Positions 29,729-32,338 of a stretch of 64,000 nucleotides of DNA are shown piece by piece. Below the pieces are notes generated by a model. That model did not search any database. It was not told where the DNA came from and worked only from the letters and a program-made list of their open reading frames with translations. This DNA comes from Planoprotostelium fungivorum (taxonomy: Eukaryota; Evosea; Variosea; Cavosteliida; Cavosteliaceae), in contig MDYQ01000033.1 in assembly GCA_003024175.1 (NCBI GenBank), forward strand, positions 62,001 through 126,000, written 5' to 3'. Position 1 is the first letter of the stretch. Every line of letters begins with the position of its first letter. Position numbers and translations under genes: made by a program.

Positions 29729-32338
29729 TCAGACGAAGACGTTCATCTTGCGGTCAACGTGGCTTCTGCACAGAGGACACTCCTTCCAATCTTCCTTCTC
29801 TGCGCATTCCACGCACAAGCACATGTGGTTGCAGGGTGTCAATACGACACTCTTCTTCTGTTTGCATCGTCATTTCGACGTCATATCTCTTTCCTCACCT
29901 CAGAGATGCAGACGACACACTTGTCGTCATCTACAGATGGAGCTGCTGCATCATTGGAAGGAGCTGCCACGTCATCTACGGCCTGGTGCTTGGCGATGGG
30001 CTCAGATGCGATATCGTTCTCCGCTGCTCTCTTCTTCTCGATCGGCTTGGCAATTTCTATCTTCGTCATCTCGTTGTCCACAAAGAGAGTATCTCACTTT
30101 GTTCAAGTTCCATGCATCTGTGTCCTACCAAGGTTTCGATTTCAGAAGACAGAGTGGGGTCGTGTACAGCCTCTTTCTCTCTGACATCGTTATCTCAGCT
30201 TCCTGCCTTCCCCTCTTCTCACCTTTTCATGTATTCGATGAACTTTTCGATCAAGTCTCTTCTGCTGTTCTCTGCCGTAGCCACTCCTCTTTCCTTCACA
30301 TACTTCTCATGTTCTGTCTTCTCATCAGCATGAGATGGAGAGACAAGAGCTTACCGTGGACAAAGTTGGTGAAGCGAACGAGAGTCACAGCCTTCCTCAC
30401 TTGTTCGTCGTCTCCATTGTCATCTAGCTCGAAGATCTCGCTGTGCTGTATACCCCTCGCATCGTCGTGACTGATCTACCGTACGTCAGGATACGTCGTA
30501 TGACGTCATCATTCTTCACCTTGAGCTTGATGGTAGAGACATCAACAGAGTCGTCACGCTTGAGACGGAAGAGGAGGATGCCACCTCTTCTACCTCCGTC
30601 TTCGTTCTTCATCGATGGAAACTCGGCACTCATCTCGATCAATCCTCCTGTGCAATCGTCACGTGATGTGATGACGTGTGATGACATGTCATACCCGGCT
30701 TGACGTTCTCGGCTTCGGGCGATCCGTAGCCTGCGTCGATGGACCAGCCGCATCCATCTACAATGGACACTTGGATGTTGAAAGCGATGGGACTGACCAG
30801 ATAGCCAAACTCTCCTTCCATCAGTGATCTGAACTCGTCACCGCATCTCGTATGATGTCATTCGTCATTCATCTACACTGATGTAGATGGAAGTCACCTG
30901 ACGAGACTGTAGTTGCAGCCGGCCGTAGCGCTGACTCTATCAATGACAGTCTTCGACAGATCTTTTCCGATGCCCACGACAGTGGTCCACACACTCCTCN
31001 CGTCACGTGATGTGATGAGTTGTGATGACGTATCATACCCTGCTTGACGTTCTCGGCTTCGGGCGAGCCGTAGCCTACATCGATAGACCAGCCGCATCCA
31101 TCTACAATGGACACTTGGATGTTGAAAGCGATGGGACTGACCAGATAGCCAAACTCTCCTTCCATCAGCGATCTGAACTCATCGCCGCATCTCACATGAT
31201 GTCATTCGTCATTCGTCTACACTGATGTAGATGGAAGTCACCTGACGAGACTGTAGTTGCAGCCGGCGGTAGCGCTGACTCTATCGATGACAGTCTTCGA
31301 CAGGTCTTTTCCGATGCCCACGACAGTGGTCCACACACTCCTCTCAGACGCCTCTTGTGTGCTGTTGAGAAACCCTGCTTCATCTCGACTGTCCGACTCC
31401 ATATCTGTTTCGGTCAGACGTGTGGTGGAGAATGTGTGGGACAGACCTGTCAAGAAGAAGATCCTCCTGGAGCAGTTGGCTCTCTCTGGTGCCTTCTGAA
31501 GGAGAGACGTGGCAGACTTGGCCGCTGCCGTCAGCTCGGTACCTCCACCTGTATGATGTCATCACACGTCATCGCAGCGACACCCACAGGCTTTCCACTT
31601 GTGGATCTGCTGGGCCAGTTTCTTTCTGTCCAAGTCCTTCACGCTCGTGAGAGGTAGAAAGACTGAGGGAGAGTTGCTGAAGAGGATGATGCTGACCGTG
31701 TCTCTGTCGTGCAGCTGATCGAGGATGGCGTTGACGCACTCTTTGGCCACAGAGAGCTTCGTTTCACCATGACTTACATCGGAGAAGCTGTGACAAGTGT
31801 GAACGATGAGACAGAGAGAGAGGAGAGAACGTACCCACAAGACATGGAACCAGAGACATCGATGACTAAGACCAAGTCTAAGTCTTCTCTGCCGTGTCTC
31901 TTCACTCCATCACCGTCTAACTTGCTGCTGAAGTTGATGCCCACCCAGTGCTATGACTCGTGTGAGATGTTTGGGTCGAGACAGTGACGTCCACTCACGT
32001 CACTCTTGGTGTCTGTCTCGTCTGTGGGTGACGCAGGTGTACGACAGCTGGCGGCACCCACTCGGAAGATGTCTTCTGTGTCTTTCCCGGCTGTGGGAGT
32101 GAAGTAGTGAGCGTAGAAGCTTGTGCTGTATGTGACCTCTGTCTGTATGGTCACTTGTTCTTCTTCCTCTTCTTCTGGCCTGAGACCTCCGACACTCATA
32201 CCAGACTTGCGAGCGGCCGTAGAGGCTACGTGAGAGCGTGGAGCCTTACCTCTGTTTGATGTCAGCTGTGGGCAGGGAGAGAAGGAAAGAAAGAAAATAC
32301 CCGGTGCTTTTTCTTGCGGTCTGTCTTGTTCTTGCCAT
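29729..32338 (-). CDS. Histone H3-tail-like + VWA + RING protein (candidate E3 ligase)
   Basis: ATG 32338 opens [13 protein letters not shown]. After a short intron the next exon reads [20 protein letters not shown] and [10 protein letters not shown], matching histone H3 residues 1-10 and 12-28 in register around a small insert. An acidic patch follows, then a VWA domain with an intact MIDAS (LVLVIDVSGSMSCG, about 31840-31890) and KLSVAKECVNAILDQL. A beta-rich middle comes next, and a C-terminal C3HC4 RING: KCVVCISE ... TPCNHMCLCVECA ... ECPLCRSH, stop 29729-29731. VWA-RING proteins (plant RGLG, relatives of copine-type VWA) are ubiquitin ligases. Part of the middle (30660-31343) is present twice around an N. 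A 5'-UTR intron (32339-32420) ends CGTTGTAG. Confidence 0.78.
30660..31343. repeat. Duplicated ~340 bp exon-intron block split by one N
   Basis: 30660-30999 and 31001-31343 are the same stretch of the VWA-RING gene (coding for EGEFGYLVSPIAFNIQVS and for SATAGCNYSLV, plus the introns between), differing at a few percent of sites. Base 31000 is N. As in the Cys-rich gene, this looks like two haplotypes placed in series; a true exon duplication would repeat the middle domain. Confidence 0.7.

Follow-up and report, generated by a model that had tools for sequence, protein, structure and literature searches.

The mimics of the histone H3 tail known to us are short, and most of them arose by convergence in non-histone proteins. 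PAF15 (PCLAF) is described as having an N-terminal H3-like sequence that is bound and ubiquitylated by UHRF1, its tail being held on the UHRF1 PHD finger with a Kd of 2.2 µM, against 1.5 µM for H3 (PMC7060239). The AKER tail of the shugoshin Sgo1 is reported to bind in the same BIR pocket of Survivin as H3 does (PMC9253516), and the SNAG domain of GFI1 and SNAI1 to occupy the substrate cleft of LSD1 (PMC5896174). PAF15, Sgo1 and SNAG can be regarded as precedents for N-terminal H3-like tails that serve as protein docks. SNAG tails are short and divergent and stand on zinc-finger repressors, and Sgo1, to our knowledge, is without a RING or a VWA domain. K18 and K23 are UHRF1 target sites on H3. 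Plant WAV3 is a VWA-RING protein, and we know of no H3 tail on VWA-RING proteins of this sort; no VWA-RING protein with an H3 tail was apparent, by title or by the start of the abstract, among the open-licence literature matches listed.

The gene described here lies in a 64,000-nucleotide stretch of contig C259 (the window), and the original prediction of a VWA-RING gene that opens with an H3 tail was confirmed, with corrections, at its place on the minus strand. Like WAV3, it joins VWA and RING in one protein, but its RING lies at the C terminus and belongs to the zf-C3HC4_3 type. The UHRF1 target sites K18 and K23 are both lost from the fused tail. UHRF1 is likewise a RING ligase linked to the H3 tail in the account of PMC7060239; it reads H3 with its TTD-PHD module, whereas the fused protein carries the H3 tail itself. 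PAF15, as that source presents it, resembles the fused protein in having an H3-like N terminus on a non-histone protein and in its tie to ubiquitin signalling, but is a substrate with a short likeness, whereas the fused protein is a putative ligase with about 36 tail residues. The likeness to Sgo1 is a free N-terminal tail of alanine and basic residues that is read as H3 (as put in PMC9253516), although the H3-like tail of Sgo1 is four residues long; that to SNAG, following PMC5896174, is an N-terminal mimic of the H3 tail through which a chromatin enzyme is recruited. A free N-terminal H3-like sequence is common to all three and, as predicted from the DNA, to the fused protein, but the latter points to descent from H3 instead of convergence. 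It is therefore less a member of the mimic family, while a similar way of working is unaffected.

The coordinates of the gene are summarized in Table 1. Residue numbers are those of H3, with Met left out.

Table 1. Predicted features of the VWA-RING gene with an H3 tail (window positions; window = C259 62001-126000).
Feature	Positions	Strand	Remarks
VWA-RING gene with H3 tail (copy A)	32338 to 29729	minus	contig C259
Predicted 5'UTR intron, or just 5' flank	32339..32420	minus	gtgagt...ctgactcgttgtag, GT-AG ends, CTGAC 9 nt from intron end
Exon 1, H3 tail residues 1-12 (2 nt of Gly12 codon)	32301..32338	minus	ATG GCA AGA ACA AGA CAG ACC GCA AGA AAA AGC ACC GG
Intron 1	32252..32300	minus	49 nt, GT-AG, gtattttc...ctgacatcaaacag, CTGAC 9 nt from end
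Exon 2, Gly12 remainder, H3 tail up to residue 37 or so, EEEEEE acidic linker, pre-VWA region	31999..32251	minus	begins at 32251 with AGGTAAGGCTCC; DNA after intron 1 is A GGT AAG GCT CCA CGC
Exon 3, VWA start with MIDAS-like DVSGSMS	31835..31950	minus	Pfam on joined exons 1-7
Exon 4, VWA continued	31588..31787	minus	GT donor at 31587
Exon 5, VWA continued	31447..31548	minus
Exon 6, VWA end	31242..31404	minus
Exon 7, post-VWA region	31039..31190	minus
Single N, probable assembly join	31000..31000	n/a
End of next-to-last exon, first RING Cys pair	29899..29931	minus	DDDKCVVCISE
Last exon, rest of RING	29729..29857	minus	KKSVVLTPCNHMCLCVECAEKEDWKECPLCRSHVDRKMNVFV, then stop

The splicing of the gene, including that of the 5'UTR intron, is predicted from the DNA. 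When exons 1 and 2 are spliced, the H3 tail is read in gap-free register to about residue 36. Eleven GT-AG introns (20-250 nt, donor in the first 140 nt) keep the frame open from the ATG through the end of exon 2, and intron 1 alone among them restores the H3 register. The two H3-like blocks had been placed in register with a short insert between them; the register stands, and the insert came from a one-base slip in AAAAAGC, by which exon 1 was misread as ending in KKHR. Intron 1 is identical in the second gene copy described below. CTGAC or CTGAT is found 8-12 nt from the intron end in six of the 10 introns listed and is absent from the other four. On the unspliced 5' side an in-frame TAG stands immediately upstream of the tail ATG; with the predicted 5'UTR intron removed there is again an upstream in-frame stop, and no in-frame Met between that stop and the ATG. 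Because an in-frame stop precedes the ATG, the tail would be the extreme N terminus, as in H3, unless a non-ATG start is used, and because the ATG directly follows such a stop, Ala1 could be exposed as it is in H3. Rfam and tRNA scans of the 64-kb window gave no matches.

That the protein starts at Met30, the H3-like exons being an untranslated leader or part of another message, is very improbable. The clear part of the H3 match ends close to Met30 and the unspliced first ORF stops after 30 codons, yet G33, G34, V35L and K36R, past Met30, are still in the H3 register, the frame from the 5' ATG stays open via the 49-nt GT-AG intron with its branch-like CTGAC, and amino-acid conservation is not expected of a leader.

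The 342-aa left part of the protein (joined exons 1-7) matched the Pfam models VWA_2 (3.1e-21) and VWA (5.6e-17), exon 4 running 3 nt past its donor in this query, with one extra Gly. The DxSxS motif of VWA domains is present as DVSGSMS, which we take to be MIDAS-like. The joined two RING exons of copy A matched zf-C3HC4_3 (3.2e-14), with the C3HC4 zinc ligands present. Among PDB sequences, BIRC3, MGRN1 and CGRRF1 come nearest to the RING, and BatB (8.6e-7) to the VWA part. From these matches, the fused protein is likely to be a RING E3 ubiquitin ligase. It is not a histone: the 342-aa model gave no Pfam match to the histone fold (PF00125), and C259 carries none of the 29 matches to PF00125 (E <= 1) that were listed for the genome.

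The retention of R2, T3, Q5, T6, A7, R8, K9, K14, R17, R26, K27 and S28 and the change K4R, as first described, were all borne out, and S10, T11, G12, G13, A15, P16, H19 and V20 are further kept when the tail is compared with the H3 of the same genome. The full set of kept residues is R2, T3, Q5 to R17, H19 to A21, A24 to S28, S31, G33 and G34, against the changes K4R, K18S, K23T, A29G, V30M, S32V, V35L, K36R and K37P, and 24 of residues 1-27 are retained. Lysines K9, K14 and K27 remain; K4, K18, K23 and K36 are lost, so that fewer enzymes could act on the tail, and such losses would be as expected of a decaying or re-purposed tail.

The tail was searched against the genome (E <= 10), and the nine matches consisted of the two gene copies (top four) and five H3 genes. 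Identity is 72% over residues 1-39 with the C351 and C64 H3 genes (E = 4.3e-10) and 89% over residues 1-27 with the C109 H3 gene. In the PDB the best match of the tail was histone H3 (E = 3.9e-9, residues 1-39; best 60 of 136 matches at E <= 0.1), and in Pfam the tail alone hit nothing but the model for PAF (PCNA-associated factor), with an E of 0.49 that is no better than chance. After the common start, the five canonical H3 genes of the genome continue (N/S)KAARKS(A/S)VSSGGVKK. H19-V20 is common to the tail and all five of these genes, and S22 is common to the tail and the genes on C109 and C168. In the two aligned H3 sequences of the PDB, which make up the comparison with H3 of other species, residues 19-20 are QL. 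Because H19-V20 is shared with the H3 genes of the genome and the whole tail is in register, a gene fusion appears likely, and a convergent mimic was rejected on the same grounds, the two PDB alignments included. The tail most likely descends, judging by its sequence, from the organism's own H3 lineage. What had been described as an H3 tail mimic looks instead like part of the H3 type that the organism itself has, and the match is longer and cleaner than first stated.

Other H3-like starts were sought in the assembly (36.86 Mb, 471 contigs). A degenerate pattern for the first 10 codons occurs exactly at eight places in 36.9 Mb: one in each of the five H3 genes, one in either copy of the fused gene, and one at C351:100007. 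With up to three mismatches the same pattern has 15 places (eight exact, one with two mismatches, six with three), against five for the reversed control, and a similar 9-codon pattern has seven places with 0 mismatches against 0 in the control. The exact H3 start at C351:100007-100036 lies 6 kb from an H3 gene, in a stretch of 68 nt of which 61 are identical to the start of that gene; what follows runs to a stop, or by a possible splice to an open frame without a Pfam match. It is taken for a decaying H3 fragment, with a second, splice-made fusion not excluded. The place with two mismatches (C155:155562) is part of a divergent H3 with histone-fold matches (C155:155591-155095), which reads MSRIKQTARKSSGGKVPIS if spliced by eye and whose intron is offset by one base from that of the fused tail. 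Two of the six places with three mismatches were read (C7, C390), and neither continues as H3.

A second copy of the gene, copy B, begins at 53237 on the plus strand of C259, 41 kb from copy A, and repeats the tail-on-VWA-RING arrangement, with the three parts in the same order and no N in its stretch. Its best alignment with copy A, 1854 bases long and 97.6% identical, starts some 500 nt before the ATG and ends at the N; right of the N the copies are 94.3% identical over 1293. The copy B tail is that of copy A except for R8K. In the RING of copy B the frame is broken by a 4-nt deletion in the first Cys pair (C259 about 55300-55330), and copy B may either encode a tail-VWA protein that lacks the RING or be a gene in decay. 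A stretch of 343 nt on one side of the N at 31000 is repeated on the other, with 325 nt identical; copy B has this stretch once. The N is therefore probably an assembly join, so the halves of copy A may stem from different copies or haplotypes. Given this join and the frameshift of copy B, no single unbroken stretch holds an intact tail-VWA-RING gene. At the tail itself, an assembly chimera was rejected, as both copies carry the tail without an N and it is at a synonymous distance from every canonical H3. A second single N stands at window position 28852.

Across exons 1-7, 28 of 1027 coding bases (3 of these 1027 from the misplaced donor) distinguish copy A from copy B, in 12 synonymous and 11 changed codons. 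The five introns of equal length differ at 0 of 226 nt (Fisher p = 0.005 against the coding differences); the sixth differs in length. Nearly all of the coding differences (26 of 28) fall in exons 3-6, including two codons soon after DVSGSMS, and may reflect either diversifying selection or gene conversion in patches. Encoded 3' of copy A (window 28897-29352, minus strand) is a small cysteine-rich protein whose start resembles a signal peptide by eye. The same neighbour lies downstream of copy B (about 3735-4075 in L046, the stretch that carries copy B), and the duplication therefore carried at least one neighbour.

Over codons 2-28, dS between the tail and the H3 genes is 0.86 for C109, 1.78-1.90 for C64, C351 and C155, and saturated for C168, and dN is 0.16-0.18 for the five genes (27 codons), which gives a dN/dS of about 0.1-0.2. 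Among the H3 genes themselves dS is 0.37-1.16, and the smallest tail value, that for C109, falls inside this range. Of 38 tail codons, 21 also occur in some H3 gene, eight are synonymous codons found in none, and nine change the residue. Because the synonymous distance is large and the protein change small, this sequence comparison suggests that the tail is under selection. Neutral evolution was simulated in a simple form from C109 (4000 runs per rate; stop-making draws were dropped, so the true rates lie slightly below those given). The share of runs that kept at least 24 of 27 residues was 25% at 0.1 substitutions per site and fell to 0.7% at 0.2 and to 0.075% at 0.3; at 0.5 and at 0.8 no run did so. 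The synonymous distance points to a level above 0.2, a total in which neither the share of the fused gene nor the share after the fusion is separable, and part of the constraint may have acted while the tail was still in a full H3 gene. Between copy A and copy B there is one tail change.

These figures bear on two accounts in which no reader of H3 takes part. It is unlikely that the H3 piece was captured by chance upstream of the VWA-RING gene, where it would be mere first exon and start codon and would now be decaying. H3 fragments do arise in this genome, since the degenerate one at C351:100007 exists, and the four lost lysines, the frameshifted RING of copy B and a smallest tail dS within the H3-H3 range would all fit such a capture. 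Against it, a dS of at least 0.86 to each H3 gene, with dN about 0.17, speaks for no recent insert, and neutral runs at 0.2 or more substitutions per site seldom keep 24 of 27 residues. There is also no clear trace of a captured H3 promoter, which is a weak test, the H3 genes sharing little upstream DNA with each other; a single 15-nt exact match lies about 290 nt upstream, nearly collinear with C109 (E = 0.006).

The H3 tail, rich in Arg and Lys, is bound by importins, and the captured tail might be a nuclear import or basic localisation signal that uses the H3-carrying importins, reader binding being irrelevant. Most basic residues are kept (R2, R4, R8, K9, K14, R17, R26, K27, R36), and K4R and K36R preserve charge. 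Such a signal, however, would need no A1, T3, Q5, T6, S10, T11, G12, G13, A15 or P16, and yet 24 of 27 residues are kept where the simulation leads one to expect neutral loss at all but low substitution levels; this account appears rather unlikely, if a little less so than chance capture.

With nuclear import and functionless capture as its main rivals, the best-supported reading is that of a docking tail on a RING ligase: the 5' part of an H3 gene was fused to a VWA-RING gene, the fusion was duplicated, and the tail docks the ligase on readers or writers of H3. We advance it at somewhat less than an even chance. The 5' coding part of an H3 gene of the organism's own kind (residues 1 to about 36, without the histone fold) would have come into one reading frame with a VWA protein whose RING is C-terminal, a short acidic linker lying between the two; this arrangement would then have been duplicated. 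Removal of Met would leave an H3-like N terminus from Ala1, which PHD, chromo, BIR or LSD1-like pockets, or H3 writers, might accept as H3. K4R would preclude lysine methylation at position 4, while both ARKS sites (K9, K27) would remain available in copy A. The tail would dock the RING E3 ligase onto chromatin regulators, the VWA domain would bind a further partner, and the regulators or nearby chromatin proteins would be ubiquitylated. The genome has at least 63 matches to chromo domains (E <= 0.01), many of which may sit in retrotransposons, and at least 37 to PHD domains (E <= 0.001).

A more specific form of the docking reading is possible but more doubtful: that of a ligase with a near-whole H3 tail of its own, kept under selection and controlled through the cell's H3K9/K27 code, that would pass for a soluble H3 tail free of the histone. 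The ligase would in that case recruit readers and writers of H3, titrate them or mark them for ubiquitylation.

A nearly whole tail derived from H3 would show that gene fusion can carry the 'histone code' over to an enzyme that is not a histone. It would also let one see in nature which tail residues are enough for reading and writing when the nucleosome is absent. H3-tail antibodies and proteomics in such species might possibly pick up non-histone proteins.

An H4 tail pattern (up to two mismatches) has two places in the genome, each with a weak histone-fold match on the same strand within 150 nt downstream (C289, E = 0.10; C444, E = 0.02; both under Pfam's cut-off). Both were taken for H4 genes on account of this match, and H4 tail fusions were rejected. 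A search of the genome with the VWA part for a tail-less paralogue (E <= 10, five candidates scored) brought up nothing further except a 30% match with E = 0.01, and of 44 pattern matches on viral contigs none was confirmed as a relative. VWA-like proteins with a Vwaint match are encoded on C463 and C281, and the stretch that follows the match in both looks Hint- or intein-like.
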